This document shows, in pieces, positions 16,388 to 23,528 of a stretch of DNA of 64,000 bases. The position numbers and the translations under genes were made by a program. The DNA lies in NCBI GenBank assembly GCA_017447165.1, contig JAFSOD010000001.1:124001-188000 (forward strand). The letters run 5' to 3'. Origin of the DNA: Bacilli bacterium (GTDB lineage Bacteria > Bacillota_I > Bacilli_A > RFN20 > CAG-826). Positions within the stretch are counted from its first letter, which is position 1. Each line of letters begins with the position of its first letter. The notes beneath the pieces were generated by a model. It saw only the letters and a program-made list of their open reading frames with translations. It was not told the origin of the DNA and searched no databases.

Positions 16388-18583
16388 ATGAAAATAATTG
16401 AACTACTCATTGAGCATAATAATTATTCGTTAAATCGTCCTTTTTCTTATATCTATAATGGTGATAAAAAAGTTGATCGTGGTTATCGTGTACTGGTGAC
16501 ATTTAATCACCAAGAACTAGTGGGCTATGTCACTAGTGTTAGCGAGACTAATAAAACTAAAAAAGAATTAGAAGAAGAACTTGGTTTTAATATTGATGAA
16601 ATAGTGGATGTTATTGATTCTTCACCTTTATTAAACGAAGACTTAATGAAACTCGCCGATGAAGTTAGTGACTATTATTTAGCGAGTAAAATCTCAGTGT
16701 TGCAAACAATGCTCCCTCCTTCTTTAAGTCCTAGAAGAAGTTCTTTAAAGGCCCCAAAAATTGCTTATGACCAATATATAATTATTAAGGATTATGATGA
16801 AAGCGAATTAACCTCTAAACAAATTGAATTGCTTAGATTAATTCAAAAGAATCAACCAGTTCTTAAAAGAGAAATTAAACAAGTTAGTGTTTTAGAAAAA
16901 TTACTCGAATATGGTCGAGTTGTTATCGTTAAAAAAGAGAAAAGAAGATTACAGATCCCTAATTATGAAAAAGTGGAAATCCCTTCTTTAACTAACGACC
17001 AACAAAAGGTCGTGGACGAGTTTAATAATTCTAGTGACCAAGTCTATTTATTAGAAGGCGTTACTGGAAGTGGAAAAAGCGAGGTTTATCTACACTTATC
17101 TAAACAAATCTTAGAACAAGGTAAGTCTGTTTTAATGCTTGTTCCGGAAATATCTTTAACTCCGATGATGATGAGGAACTTTATCTCAAGATTTGGGGAA
17201 GATGTGGCGATTCTTCATAGCGAACTCACTCCAGCGGAGAAATATGATGAATATCGTAAGATTGCTTCTGAAAAATGCAAGATAGTGGTTGGCGCACGTA
17301 GTGCAATATTTGCCCCACTTAGTAATATTGGCTTAATCATATTAGACGAAGAACATGTTGAAAGTTATAAACAAGATGTTCCTCCTTTTTATCACGCTAG
17401 AGAAGTAGCCATTATTAGAAGTAAGATGCACAACTGCAAAGTGCTTTTAGGTAGTGCTACTCCTTCTTTAGAAAGTAGAGCCAGGGCAGGAAAAGGTGTT
17501 TATCATTTACTCACTTTAACTAAAAGAATTAACGAGAAAGAACTTCCGAAGACCACAATTGTGAATATGACCGACTATCATAATATTGATCGTGAAAGTT
17601 ATATCTTCTCTCTTAAACTTAAAGATGCAATTCAAAAGACTTTAGATAACTATAATCAGATTATCCTTCTTATTAATAAAAGAGGATTTTCATCAAGTGT
17701 ATATTGTCGAAGTTGTGGACATATTTTTAAGTGTCCAACTTGTAACATACCTTTAACCTATCATAAGAGTGATAGAATGCTTAAATGTCATCACTGCAAC
17801 TACTGTGAAGTTGATCATGAAACCTGTCCAGAATGTGGCTCTAAATATTTAATGAGAGTGGGATATGGCACTGAACGAATTGAAGAAGAAATTCATAAGT
17901 TATTCCCTGAAGCTAGAACACTAAGACTTGATAGCGATTCTGCAAAAATCAGAACTAAAATTCCTCAAATTATTGAGGCTTTTAGAAATAAAGAAGCCGA
18001 TATTTTAATTGGCACACAGATGATCGCTAAAGGGCACGACTTCCCTGATGTCACTTTAGTGGGTGTAGTAAATGCTGATATTGGTTTATCTTTACCAAGT
18101 TATCGAAGTAGTGAAAGAGTGTTCCAACTTATCACTCAAGCAGTAGGTAGAAGTGGTAGAAGTGATAAAAAAGGTGAAGCGATTATTCAAACCTACTCTC
18201 CTACTCACTATGCGATTACTATGGCCGCAAGACAAGACTATGAGCTTTTCTATAGAAAAGAAATGGAAATTAGAAAACTTCAATTCTATCCGCCTTATTC
18301 CTATATTGCTAGTATTACAGTCGCATCTAAAAATGAAGAACTCACCATTGATACAGTTTATAGAATTATTGATAAATTAGCAGATGAATTAAAACAAGAG
18401 GCAGTGATATTAGGTCCAACAACTCCATATGTCCCTTATGAAAATAACAAACATATCCGTTCAATAATGGTTAAATATCGTCATGGTGAAATCGTTAAAC
18501 CAGCCTTAGAAAAACTACTAAAAAGCAGTCTTAATAAGAGTGGAATCTCTTTAACAGTTAATATTGACCCTTACAATTTATAG
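16388..18583 (+). CDS. priA: Primosomal replication restart helicase PriA
   Basis: Rebuilds stalled replication forks. Helicase motifs: GVTGSGKSEVY (Walker A, near residue 226), LDEEH, GSATPSLES and the C-terminal AVGRSGR. Eight zinc-binding cysteines are clear: CRSC, CPTC, CHHC...C and CPEC between about residues 440 and 485. Length 731 residues is slightly below the family norm. Co-transcribed with gmk. Confidence 0.96.
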   Translation: MKIIELLIEHNNYSLNRPFSYIYNGDKKVDRGYRVLVTFNHQELVGYVTSVSETNKTKKELEEELGFNIDEIVDVIDSSPLLNEDLMKLADEVSDYYLASKISVLQTMLPPSLSPRRSSLKAPKIAYDQYIIIKDYDESELTSKQIELLRLIQKNQPVLKREIKQVSVLEKLLEYGRVVIVKKEKRRLQIPNYEKVEIPSLTNDQQKVVDEFNNSSDQVYLLEGVTGSGKSEVYLHLSKQILEQGKSVLMLVPEISLTPMMMRNFISRFGEDVAILHSELTPAEKYDEYRKIASEKCKIVVGARSAIFAPLSNIGLIILDEEHVESYKQDVPPFYHAREVAIIRSKMHNCKVLLGSATPSLESRARAGKGVYHLLTLTKRINEKELPKTTIVNMTDYHNIDRESYIFSLKLKDAIQKTLDNYNQIILLINKRGFSSSVYCRSCGHIFKCPTCNIPLTYHKSDRMLKCHHCNYCEVDHETCPECGSKYLMRVGYGTERIEEEIHKLFPEARTLRLDSDSAKIRTKIPQIIEAFRNKEADILIGTQMIAKGHDFPDVTLVGVVNADIGLSLPSYRSSERVFQLITQAVGRSGRSDKKGEAIIQTYSPTHYAITMAARQDYELFYRKEMEIRKLQFYPPYSYIASITVASKNEELTIDTVYRIIDKLADELKQEAVILGPTTPYVPYENNKHIRSIMVKYRHGEIVKPALEKLLKSSLNKSGISLTVNIDPYNL

Positions 18584-18618: not shown

Positions 18619-19065
18619 ATGATTAGTGTATTTGTTTATGGATTAGATCAATTCTTAGTTGGAGATTTAAGTGTCCAATTAGGTAAAGACTTAGCTAAAC
18701 TTTATGAAGTTGATGAAGATGATATCAACTTTGTTGCTCCTAACGCAATGGTGTTCCATCAAAGAGCGGAACAAACTTCTTGGAGAGTTATTGTTGAAGT
18801 AAACGTCCCTAAGAAATTAGAAGTCTTACAAGAACAAGCTACTCAAGTGATTGTCCATCACATTAAACAAATTGCTATTCACGTTGAAATCTTATTCAAA
18901 TACTACTTAAGCGATCACCATCACTTAGAAATTAATGAAGAATATCCACTTTATCTTGAAGAACAACCTGATGTGGAAATTGAGACAGAATATCCTGATG
19001 ACATCGAAGAAGGTGAAGGGGAAGACGAGATTTATACCGGAGATATATTTGAAGGTTTAAAATAA
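18619..19065 (+). CDS. DUF1904-like small protein with acidic tail
   Basis: A 148-residue cytoplasmic protein. The first 100 residues have the alternation of a tautomerase-like fold (MISVFVYGLDQF; VIVEVNVPKK; HVEILFKYY), which resembles DUF1904; this is a judgement by eye. The last 45 residues are very acidic (Glu/Asp-rich). No function is known. GAGGTG precedes the start, 35 bases after priA, and a terminator follows, so it is the last gene of the gmk-priA unit or has its own promoter (TATAGT at 18595). Confidence 0.65.
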   Translation: MISVFVYGLDQFLVGDLSVQLGKDLAKLYEVDEDDINFVAPNAMVFHQRAEQTSWRVIVEVNVPKKLEVLQEQATQVIVHHIKQIAIHVEILFKYYLSDHHHLEINEEYPLYLEEQPDVEIETEYPDDIEEGEGEDEIYTGDIFEGLK

Positions 19066-19087: not shown

Positions 19088-19185
19088 TAATTACTCAATT
19101 TTAATTGAATATATGCTTTGAAAAACTATTTTTAGATATATTTCTATATGTTAAAATAAACATGCTATTTAGAGAGGATTTAACT

Positions 19186-21168
19186 ATGAAAAAATTCTTT
19201 TGTTTATCTTTAATTTCTTTATGCGGATTAGCATCTTTCTTTATTCCAAAGACTGTTCAACCAGTTAAGGCCGAAGAAACAAAACCAGAAGATTTGAGTG
19301 GTTATTATGAATTAATGGACGGCCCAGAGCAAAATTATGCAGATCGCTATAATTCAGAATATATTTTAGCTTATGATGATGGCACCTCAATGCGTGTCTT
19401 TCATCCTAATAGTTATACTAACGCATATGGCGAGAATAATTTTGTAACTCTTAATTATTCTTCTCGCTATATCAAAAAAGCTGATTTAACCGATGCAAAA
19501 TCTGCTTTTACGATTGAAAGATATAACGCAGTGGATATGTTTAGAGTTTTGTATCAAAACCAAAACACTAAGTGTTTAGCGATGTCTGATTCACCATATA
19601 ATAACGATGTATCAATTGCGAATGGCATTTACTTTATTTCAACATCTTCAACTTATGAAGTACTTAATAAAAGAGCCAAGATCACACTTGAAAAACCACA
19701 ATATTATCCACAGCGATTTGTGTTTGGAATTGGCACTCTTGACTCCTCATATTATGAATTCCGTTATAACAGCGACTTAAACATGATACGCCCTTATTCG
19801 TTATCGAGTAAAAACTTTGTAAATAATCCTGTTAGATTATACAAATTAGGCGGGTGTAATTTTGCTAAAACACCTTCCAAAATTGAAATTACTTCAGCTA
19901 AGACTAGTTTTGAAACTGGTGATAGTTTTGTGAAACCTACAGTAACAGCCTACTATACTGATAATAGTTCTGAAGATGTTTCTAGTCGCACAACATTCAC
20001 AGGGTTTGATAGTTCAGACCGCTCTAAAATGGGCACTCAAACTATTACTGCTTCATTTACTAGTAACAATGTTACTGTTACCACTACATACGAAATAGAA
20101 ATGAAGGGTTGTAAAGAAGTTAGCATTAATTTATATGACTATTATGCTGCTAATAAATATGTTTATTTTATTGGTGAGGAATTTCAAAGACCAACCATCG
20201 AAGTTATTTGTCGCATTCCTTCACAAAACTATTTAGTGCCTTATAATTCCGTTATTGAAGAACCTCGTTCCTTAAGATTCTCTGGCTTTGATAGTTCTAA
20301 AGCCGGTACCGTCACTGTTTATGTTGTCTATGACGGTTACAATAGTGATGGTTCTTTAACCACCTCATATACTGTAACCATCAAAGAGCCACAACCAACT
20401 TCTTTAGAAGTCACTAATCATAGAGACACTTACGCTCAATATGAACAATTCGTTCCAAATATTACCGCAATTTGCCATTATGAAGATAATAGTACACACG
20501 ACGTCACAAATTCAGTTACTGTGACCGCCCCTGGTCCATTCAATACACTTGGTGATTATGTTATTGATGTCAAATTTGGCGATTTAGTAGCTTCTTATAC
20601 GGTTCATGTTGTTCCTGCCGAATTAGTGTCAATTGAAGTTTCAAATAACGCCAAAACAAATTATTTTGTTGGTGATGAATTTGTCGCTCCAAAAGTTTTT
20701 GGTGCATATAATAATGGGCAAGTAGTTGAAGTAAACGCGACCTTCTCGGGGTTCTCTAGTGACGCTCCAGGAAAATATACAATCATTGTGACATATTGCG
20801 GTAAAGAAGCTTCATATGTTGTAACTGTAAAAAATCCAGAAGTTGTTAGCCTTACTATTGGAGAATATCAAAATGAATATTTTGTTGGTGATGAATTTGT
20901 TGCTCCAGTAGTCACCGGACATTTTGATAATGGTGAAGAAAAAGAAGTGGAAGCAACATTTACTGGCTTTGATAGCTCTAAAGCCGGTGAAATCACCGTT
21001 ACCGCTTCATATAATGGAGTGAGTGTTAGCTTTAAAGTTGAAGTAAAAGCTAGACCATCAGCAGGAGGATGTGGAGGCTCAATTAGTACTCCATCTATCA
21101 CGATTTTTGCCATCTCTTTAGTGAGTCTTGGCTTATTGGTTTTAATTAAAAAAAGACACGCCAAATAG
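19186..21168 (+). CDS. Secreted surface protein with five Ig-like repeats and GGCGGS/TM tail
   Basis: A 660-residue exported protein. The start at 19186 has AGAGAGGAT upstream and a signal peptide (MKKFFCLSLISLCGL, likely cleavage before AEETKPED). An N-terminal domain of about 210 residues of unknown type follows, then five Ig-like (Big_3-like) repeats marked by GDEFVAP, TFTGFDSSKAG and YTVTVK patterns. The C-terminus is tripartite: GGCGGS, a hydrophobic helix of about 20 residues, then KKRHAK. There is no LPXTG. The tail may be a sorting signal or a simple membrane anchor. Probably a cell-surface adhesin or carbohydrate-binding protein; ligand unknown. It sits alone between two terminators. 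Confidence 0.85.
   Translation: MKKFFCLSLISLCGLASFFIPKTVQPVKAEETKPEDLSGYYELMDGPEQNYADRYNSEYILAYDDGTSMRVFHPNSYTNAYGENNFVTLNYSSRYIKKADLTDAKSAFTIERYNAVDMFRVLYQNQNTKCLAMSDSPYNNDVSIANGIYFISTSSTYEVLNKRAKITLEKPQYYPQRFVFGIGTLDSSYYEFRYNSDLNMIRPYSLSSKNFVNNPVRLYKLGGCNFAKTPSKIEITSAKTSFETGDSFVKPTVTAYYTDNSSEDVSSRTTFTGFDSSDRSKMGTQTITASFTSNNVTVTTTYEIEMKGCKEVSINLYDYYAANKYVYFIGEEFQRPTIEVICRIPSQNYLVPYNSVIEEPRSLRFSGFDSSKAGTVTVYVVYDGYNSDGSLTTSYTVTIKEPQPTSLEVTNHRDTYAQYEQFVPNITAICHYEDNSTHDVTNSVTVTAPGPFNTLGDYVIDVKFGDLVASYTVHVVPAELVSIEVSNNAKTNYFVGDEFVAPKVFGAYNNGQVVEVNATFSGFSSDAPGKYTIIVTYCGKEASYVVTVKNPEVVSLTIGEYQNEYFVGDEFVAPVVTGHFDNGEEKEVEATFTGFDSSKAGEITVTASYNGVSVSFKVEVKARPSAGGCGGSISTPSITIFAISLVSLGLLVLIKKRHAK
20620..21051 (+). 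repeat. Tandem Ig-like domain repeat in the surface protein gene
   Basis: Two closely related units begin at 20620 and 20839, a period of 219 bases (73 codons). Both encode YFVGDEFVAP with nearly identical DNA near 20661 and 20878, a sign of recent duplication. Three more diverged copies precede them (from about 19870). Confidence 0.8.
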
Positions 21169-21244: not shown

Positions 21245-22489
21245 ATGAACATTTTTGAAACATCGAAATCAGTATTATTAAAATTAGTGAACGAAGATGT
21301 CCCTTTTGCGGTTGTCCTTAAAAACACCTTCAAAAAGAATAACGTCGATCCTGCCATTAAAAATAATGTGGCTGCGTTAGTGGGGTGTGAACTTAGACAT
21401 CACTACATTTTTGATAATTTAATCAAAAGATTTTTTGAAGATGTGGAATTTGAAAAGACTGTTTATTTAAGATTTGCTTTAGCAAACGGATTATTCTTAA
21501 GAAGGTTTTCCGACGCTGAGCTTATCGCTTTAGCGGAAAAAGATTTAGATAGAGAAACTATCTATAAGTTATATAACTTCGTTAAATCCACTAATGAGAT
21601 TATTCCTAACGACTTAGATAAAGCCTCTCCAGAATATTTATCTTTGAGATATAACACTCCAGCTTGGGTCATTAGGATGTGGCAAAAACAATACGGTAAA
21701 GGCGTGGTTTTTAAAACATTAAAAGTTAATTATCGTCAAAGTGTACCATCTATTAGAGTAAATGAGAATAATATCGATATTGATGAATTCTTAGGAAAAC
21801 ATCCAGATTTTTCTAAGGCTCCAATTGACAATATGGTGATTTATCAAGGTCGAGGCACTCCTAAGAAACTTCCAGAATTTGAAAGCGGTGATCTCTTCTT
21901 TATGAAGATGGCCACTAAATATGTTTTAGATTCTTTAGATTTAGATGTCCTTAAAGGAATTGCAATCTATACCGAAGTTCCTAATAACATCTATCTAGAT
22001 TTATTAACTAGATTTAACGAAGACACTAAATTAGATTTAGTGATTAATAACACTAGTTGTTATTATGAGACTAAAAGAAGTTTAGAAAAGGTTGCTAAAC
22101 ACCATATCTTTATTTATGAAGCAGAGTATTCAAGTTTATTAACTTGTTTATCTAAAAAAGTGCATACCATGATTTGTATGCCAAAAAGCTCTACCTTTGA
22201 CTTACTTAGAAGCACACCAGATTACTTTTTAAGAATCAAGCAAGACAAATTAGATGAGATTATCGCTAATGAAAGCGCTTGTTTATTAGAATGTTCTAAA
22301 TATGTCGAAGAAGGTGGGGAATTAGTATATATGATTCCTACATTATCGAGAAAAGAAAGCAATAACGTCATCGCTAAATTCCTTGTTGAAAACAAGGACT
22401 TTGAGCTACTAGAAGAACGACAATTCTTCCCATTTGAAGTATATGACTCATGTTTATATTTTGCTCGATTAAAGAAAGTCGAGAAATAA
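21245..22489 (+). CDS. rsmB: RsmB-like protein lacking methyltransferase catalytic residues
   Basis: Homologue of the 16S rRNA m5C967 methyltransferase, 414 residues. The N-terminal NusB-like helical domain and LSLRYNTPAWVIRMWQKQYG align well with RsmB. In the methyltransferase half every key motif is changed: the SAM loop (normally DACAAPGGK) reads YTEVPNNIY near 242-250, motif IV (DAPCSG) reads CMPKSS near 311-316, and motif VI (YSTC) reads YMIPT near 362-366. Both catalytic cysteines are absent, yet the frame is intact and flanking residues (GGELVY, TPDY) remain. Likely catalytically dead but retained for RNA or ribosome binding. Located exactly where Bacillus has rsmB, before rlmN. Start chosen at 21245, after the -10 box. 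Confidence 0.82.
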   Translation: MNIFETSKSVLLKLVNEDVPFAVVLKNTFKKNNVDPAIKNNVAALVGCELRHHYIFDNLIKRFFEDVEFEKTVYLRFALANGLFLRRFSDAELIALAEKDLDRETIYKLYNFVKSTNEIIPNDLDKASPEYLSLRYNTPAWVIRMWQKQYGKGVVFKTLKVNYRQSVPSIRVNENNIDIDEFLGKHPDFSKAPIDNMVIYQGRGTPKKLPEFESGDLFFMKMATKYVLDSLDLDVLKGIAIYTEVPNNIYLDLLTRFNEDTKLDLVINNTSCYYETKRSLEKVAKHHIFIYEAEYSSLLTCLSKKVHTMICMPKSSTFDLLRSTPDYFLRIKQDKLDEIIANESACLLECSKYVEEGGELVYMIPTLSRKESNNVIAKFLVENKDFELLEERQFFPFEVYDSCLYFARLKKVEK

Positions 22490-22490
22490 A

Positions 22491-23528
22491 GTGATTAATC
22501 TATACGGTTTAGAATTAAAGAAATTACAAGATTTAATGGTGAAATATGACCAAAAGCCATATCGCGCCATCCAACTATATACTTGGATCTACGAAAAAAG
22601 AGCGACATCTTTTGATGAGATGAGCGATATCTCTATTAAGTTTAGAGATGTTTTGAAGTCTGACTTTTGTTTGTCTATTCCTAAGATCCACACGAAACAG
22701 ATTTCTAGTGATGGCACTATTAAACTCTTGTTAGAGTTAAGTGATGGCTACAAAGTAGAAACTGTTTTAATGCGATATAACTACGGCAACGCTGTCTGTG
22801 TCTCTAGCCAAGTTGGTTGCAACATGGCTTGTAGCTTCTGCTCAAGTGGAATCTTAGGCAAACAAAGAAATCTTGAACCACATGAAATGGTGGGACAGAT
22901 TCTAGTGATGAATAATCTTCTAAAAGAAGAAGGTAGAGGCGAAAGAGTGACCCATATCGTGGTGATGGGTACTGGAGAGCCTTTTGATAACTATGACAAT
23001 GTTATGGATTTTATTAGAATTGTGAACGCTCAAAAAGGTTTAGCAATTGGGGCTAGACATATTACTATCTCTACGTGCGGACTCCCAGATAGAATTAGAC
23101 AATATTCTAAAGAGGGACTTCAAACCAATTTAGCGATTTCTCTTCACGCTCCTAATAATGAACTGAGAAATAAATTAATGAAAATTAATAAAGCCTATCC
23201 TTTAGAAGTTTTAATGCCTGCGATTAAAGACTATGAAAAAGAAGCAGGTAGAAGAGTGACTTACGAATACCTTCTTTTAGAAGGTATCAATGACACCAAA
23301 GAGTGTGCTCAAGAGTTAATTGATTTAATTAAAGGGACGAATGGCTATGTCAATTTAATCCCATATAACGAAACAAATAAAAATGATTATAAACGTAGTA
23401 GCGGTAACCGCGTCCATACTTTCTTAGATATTCTTATGAAAGGTGGAGTAAAGGCTACCATTAGAAAAGAATTTGGTAGCGATATTGATGCAGCGTGCGG
23501 ACAATTAAAAGCCAAAGTTGGAGATTAA
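22491..23528 (+). CDS. rlmN: 23S rRNA/tRNA adenine-C2 methyltransferase RlmN
   Basis: Radical SAM enzyme that methylates A2503 of 23S rRNA and A37 of tRNAs. The cluster-binding motif is CNMACSFC; GTGEPFDNYDN and SLHAPNNELR follow, and the second catalytic cysteine is in DIDAACGQL near the C-terminus. Length 345 residues is normal. It begins with GTG directly after the rsmB-like stop, so it is probably coupled to it. Confidence 0.96.
   Translation: MINLYGLELKKLQDLMVKYDQKPYRAIQLYTWIYEKRATSFDEMSDISIKFRDVLKSDFCLSIPKIHTKQISSDGTIKLLLELSDGYKVETVLMRYNYGNAVCVSSQVGCNMACSFCSSGILGKQRNLEPHEMVGQILVMNNLLKEEGRGERVTHIVVMGTGEPFDNYDNVMDFIRIVNAQKGLAIGARHITISTCGLPDRIRQYSKEGLQTNLAISLHAPNNELRNKLMKINKAYPLEVLMPAIKDYEKEAGRRVTYEYLLLEGINDTKECAQELIDLIKGTNGYVNLIPYNETNKNDYKRSSGNRVHTFLDILMKGGVKATIRKEFGSDIDAACGQLKAKVGD

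Follow-up and report, generated by a model that had tools for sequence, protein, structure and literature searches.

The gene designated here rsmB* (positions 21245..22489 on the + strand of the window, the 64,000-nucleotide stretch of a Bacilli genome that was analyzed) encodes a pseudoenzyme of the RsmB family: its fold is kept and selection on it is maintained, but the catalytic residues are lost. By tree, fold and gene neighborhood it is an intact orthologue of RsmB (also Fmu or Sun; PDB 1SQF/1SQG), the methyltransferase that forms m5C967 in 16S rRNA, from which it differs in being without the SAM loop, the acidic cofactor residues and both catalytic cysteines, and in that C967 itself is replaced in some of the carriers. 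Throughout its clade the gene encodes an RsmB pseudoenzyme, which is not to be counted within RsmB as a family of enzymes. It is a long-standing question whether rRNA methyltransferases persist for the sake of their methyl mark or for rRNA binding and folding, and evolution appears here to have tested it, with the machinery for making the mark lost and the protein under strong selection. That combination suggests a protein that probably continues to take part in building the small subunit without adding the chemical mark. The more specific proposal, that the pseudoenzyme keeps the SAM-independent role of RsmB at helix 31 in 30S assembly, has in our judgment about an even chance of being right.

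A preliminary description made from the DNA letters had reported an intact reading frame with likeness to RsmB along its length, and both hold. The frame is open for 414 residues, and the AlphaFold2 model of the product (40 relatives in the alignment; mean pLDDT 93.5) has E. coli RsmB/Fmu with SAM (1sqf) as its top PDB match, from end to end of the chain, at a TM score of 0.84 and 17% identity. Next in rank are PH0851, Nop2 and NSUN4, several of these structures being from ribosome assembly intermediates. The product has the full-length architecture of RsmB, with an all-helical NusB-like N-terminal domain (residues 1-125; 21245..21619), a ferredoxin/RRM-like middle domain (residues 126-225; 21620..21919) that PF22458 matches weakly, and a former methyltransferase core (residues 226-414; 21920..22486) whose Rossmann-like fold is kept in the model and in the structure match, all on the + strand. 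The NusB-like domain, also claimed earlier to be preserved, keeps its helical fold in the model though its sequence is so far diverged that the Pfam NusB model misses it here, as it does in nearly all the dead proteins, while finding it in active relatives. Profile scores are low for the enzyme: Pfam Methyltr_RsmB-F gives 28.5 bits, barely above its cut-off of 27, and the NCBIfam RsmB equivalog models give 82.6 bits, far short of a cut-off of 319.

Alignment and structure prediction against RsmB, which had been proposed as a check, agree that the fold is retained and the motifs are lost. The former SAM loop, motif I, reads AIYTEVPNNIY (residues 240-250; 21962..21994, +), the former motif IV, DAPCSG in the enzyme, falls at CMPKSST (residues 311-317; 22175..22195, +) and the former motif VI, YSTCT, at YMIPT (residues 362-366; 22328..22342, +). 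The earlier readings of motif I as YTEVPNNIY and motif VI as YMIPT were exact. For motif IV the absence of the cysteine was correctly seen, and the register was misplaced: the alignment sets DAPCSG against MPKSST, so that the CMPKSS first given lies one residue too far left. Depending on that register the catalytic cysteine has become Ser or Lys; neither register supplies it, so that both cysteines needed for m5C formation are absent as described. In a residue comparison of the dead sequences of two families of the order (f1 and f3) with 30 active RsmB of the class, 65 positions conserved to at least 80% in the active proteins are unconserved in the dead set, among them all the cofactor and catalytic residues. 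Replaced in rsmB*, by its own residue numbering, are D241, C243, G247 and K249 of the SAM loop, D267 of motif II, D294 of motif III, D312, C315 and G317 of motif IV, and S363, T364 and C365 of motif VI, all invariant or nearly invariant in the 30 active proteins. Thirteen positions are conserved in both sets and are mostly structural, such as G358, Y362, T366 and E371; rsmB* keeps these four and also F379, P139, W141 and N173, and so in motif VI the nucleophilic cysteine is gone and the flanking Y and T are retained. On these replacements the product would be expected to bind no SAM.

It is very improbable that the protein is still an enzyme, whether by migrated catalytic residues or by some other chemistry. 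A conserved PxSS-FD-L-R pattern near motif IV and a Y-T-KE pattern near motif VI might be taken to favor this, but they fall mostly on positions that active RsmB conserves too, and the former SAM pocket is variable, with a motif I entropy of 2.6 bits in the dead clade against 0.76 in active RsmB. A migrated catalytic cysteine is ruled out, as no column of the former catalytic domain holds a conserved Cys in the dead clade (the best reaches 23%). Codon reassignment hiding the cysteines was also considered, since reassignments reported for the order RFN20 involve AGG and CGG (PMC8629427), and was rejected: rsmB* has two AGG and no CGG codons, and the Cys codons TGT and TGC are in normal use. As an observation apart, CGG is wholly unused in the approximately 19,000 codons of the long ORFs of the window, which may be compared with those same RFN20 reassignments.

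Nor does the genome, which is 96% complete, hold a second, intact RsmB, for which a search had been suggested; the only other match is RsmF/YebU (L001). The latter belongs to the same m5C methyltransferase superfamily, but unlike rsmB* it has its motifs intact (DMCAAPGGK, DAPCSG, YSTC), has no NusB-like domain and is at a separate locus. RsmB/F-type methyltransferases of approximately 310 residues, with intact motifs and again without a NusB-like domain, occur in genera of families f1 and f3 (L141, L142, L146, L147 and L148).

The inactive state is old and widely shared. Full-length orthologues of rsmB* are present in 17 of the 19 genomes of the genus and a match is found in 132 of the 146 genomes of the family, and in every family orthologue read (more than 110 loci) the motif residues are absent, a uniformity that excludes chance and decay as its source. 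Families f3 and f5 of the order share the motif-less state, RsmB is canonical in families f2, f6, f7 and f8, and the search yielded no match in four f4 genomes or in genera g6 and g9 of f1, so that the gene is dispensable in places. In a careful tree the dead sequences form a single clade (support 100/100) nested within the canonical RsmB of the order (99/99), which places the inactivation there once and long ago. Among named records, the nearest are genomes from rumen and gut metagenomes that carry the labels Erysipelotrichaceae, Bacillales or Bacilli. Two genomes apart, canonical motifs are also seen in the other families read from the class, with small variations at single residues. In family f23 the RsmB of L315 (genome G312) and L316 (G355) has lost its cysteines and retains traces of the SAM loop (LDLWATKESS and LDLFASSSS); the two group together at 100/99, and their loss looks independent of that in the main dead clade. 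A first quick tree had joined the dead clade to f23, a grouping attributable to long branches, as placement with the active RsmB of the order is 83 log units better and the careful tree likewise sets the dead clade there, apart from f23. In genus g30 some species (L083, L089 and L093) have, away from the priA-rlmN cluster, a second RsmB copy that is full-length and lacks the motifs. Among open-licence papers, no account of an inactive RsmB was found.

Selection rather than decay had been proposed for the gene, and pairwise comparison of genus members (Nei-Gojobori) bears this out. The dN/dS of rsmB* is 0.064-0.136, nowhere near 1, alongside 0.012-0.060 for rlmN, 0.05-0.19 for prpC and 0.02-0.18 for rsgA, and a value so similar to those of the neighboring enzyme genes shows that rsmB* is not decaying. 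In nearly every pair the former catalytic core has a dN no higher than that of the NusB-like domain, which in most pairs evolves faster than either of the other two parts; the middle domain ranks lowest or close to lowest in dN. Across families the rate relative to RlmN is approximately 4.0 for rsmB* and 1.6-1.9 for active RsmB, so the constraint is looser than in the active enzyme, yet strong. That faster rate, together with the absences from g6 and g9, is what could be urged for a slow decay with residual constraint, but such decay is hardly credible and is largely refuted by a loss that happened once, long ago, and has persisted through three families, by the strong purifying selection now acting and by the lack of any stop among the family matches listed.

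The locus has been kept along with the gene. The order priA, (DUF1904), rsmB*, rlmN, prpC, prkC, rsgA, rpe is found in nearly all dead-clade loci; in the window priA is at 16388..18583 and an intact rlmN at 22491..23528, both on the + strand, and rlmN, starting 2 nucleotides after the rsmB* stop, has the conserved following position that the preliminary description had assigned to it. Such tight packing and conserved order would also be expected if rsmB* were a translational spacer coupling the upstream genes to rlmN, its protein being without function. This is the least credible of the explanations weighed here: the dN/dS of 0.06-0.14 extends across the chain, which largely refutes it, core residues are conserved, the model is folded over its full length, and the extra copies in g30 are outside the cluster.

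Between priA and rsmB* the window has a gene for a DUF1904/tautomerase-fold protein with an acidic tail (18619..19065, +), for which the Pfam score is 22.4 bits, slightly below cut-off, and the fold matches 4m1a. Most dead-clade loci have such a gene next to priA; none of the active-RsmB loci read has one there, and in most of these priA abuts rsmB. Between the DUF1904 gene and rsmB* the window also holds (19105-21168) a surface-protein-like gene with repeated Ig-like segments, a placement shared with L119 and not with most relatives. The DUF1904 protein is possibly a partner of the rsmB* product, or possibly only a marker of the clade. Its distribution enters into a further explanation, which we consider unlikely though with an appreciable minority share of the probability, namely that the RsmB fold has been repurposed and now binds another RNA or a protein partner (the DUF1904 protein, RlmN or RsmF, for example) in place of helix 31. 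The second copies outside the cluster in g30 would suit a new function, as would a shift in surface charge: from active to dead proteins the median net charge per 100 residues goes from +3.8 to -1.6 in the N-terminal domain and from -2.0 to +5.1 in the middle domain, so that the RNA interface may have moved. Weighing against repurposing, where priA and rsmB* have parted (L325 and L326) the DUF1904 gene follows priA and not rsmB*, which is why it may be a clade marker and nothing else, some f5 genomes have none near rsmB*, and its absence from active-RsmB genomes is known at the loci read only. Two other ideas were set aside. All 40 genomes tested encode a dedicated, standalone NusB, and rsmB* is accordingly no substitute for NusB; loss of formylation as the underlying cause, considered because C967 and G966 act in initiation, is rejected as 63 of 64 genomes, active and dead kinds alike, have fmt.

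The survival of fold, locus and selection with the chemistry lost makes an assembly role surviving alone the simplest explanation, and for the helix 31 form of that role there is a precedent in E. coli. There purified RsmB and RsmD, without SAM, lower the number of misfolded nascent 3′-domain RNAs around helices 30 and 31, apparently by covering the helix 31 loop (PMC13004024); RsmB acts early, before S19 joins, and its deletion leads to accumulation of the 17S precursor (PMC7056703). The non-enzymatic 30S role put forward in the preliminary description would fit these published data. The SAM-binding residues and both catalytic cysteines were lost once, in the ancestor of three families of one Bacilli order, probably RFN20, and on the proposed scheme purifying selection would since have kept rsmB* for RNA- or ribosome-binding work. 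Early in 30S assembly, ahead of S19 docking, its product would bind the nascent 16S rRNA in the region of helix 31, keep the loop out of misfolded pairings while bound, and depart without methylating C967. Binding to helix 31 or to the pre-30S particle is thus suggested by analogy with E. coli RsmB, as is the proposition that chaperoning would be what selection maintains. Counted against the helix 31 role are the charge shift, the approximately twofold rate relative to RlmN, the absences and the A968U change in helix 31 described below.

A separation of catalysis from assembly has parallels elsewhere. The mitochondrial 12S rRNA m4C methyltransferase METTL15 is needed for mitochondrial small-subunit assembly while its catalysis is dispensable (PMC11197891); it belongs to another methyltransferase family, and in its case the functions were split by mutation and not by evolution. 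Closer in fold are NSUN4-MTERF4 and Nop2/NSUN1, of the same superfamily, whose matched structures are bound in ribosome assembly intermediates and for which non-catalytic roles are reported (PMC3916286, PMC9561284); these keep an active enzyme, unlike rsmB*, whose activity was lost by descent clade-wide. The similarity to Nop2 and NSUN4, with their non-catalytic assembly roles, could be read as favoring a general 30S-assembly pseudoenzyme acting at a site other than helix 31, for instance by recruiting a protein through the NusB-like domain, and the separate presence of NusB is in keeping with this in that no substitution for NusB would be involved. We regard this as rather improbable, since the NusB-like domain is the part that evolves fastest in most pairs and there is no sign of a different binding site.

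The 16S rRNA of 51 genomes from the order (loci L191-L250) was read at helix 31, in E. coli numbering; the 16S gene of the window's own genome was not found in its assembly. C967 is kept in most of the 51 and is A in G044, G073 and G208. Both G044 and G073 still carry rsmB*, which in these two genomes therefore cannot make m5C967. Quite possibly, with the balance tipping slightly the other way, this is a natural separation of function on the scale of an order, in which RsmB was turned into a dedicated non-catalytic factor for rRNA folding in the ancestor of the three families, and a second time in another family, while helix 31 would have evolved with no need of methylation. For a whole lineage of gut Bacilli, annotation by homology as RsmB-F, 16S rRNA methyltransferase, is wrong on function, an error with consequences for the prediction of rRNA modification sets from genomic data. 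At the adjacent position most dead-clade genomes have U in place of A968; A is found in the genus of the window, in a number of further dead-clade genera and in both of the active-RsmB genomes, the only two in the sample. Positions 967-968 of helix 31 are thereby altered in many dead-clade genomes although the region is usually very conserved.
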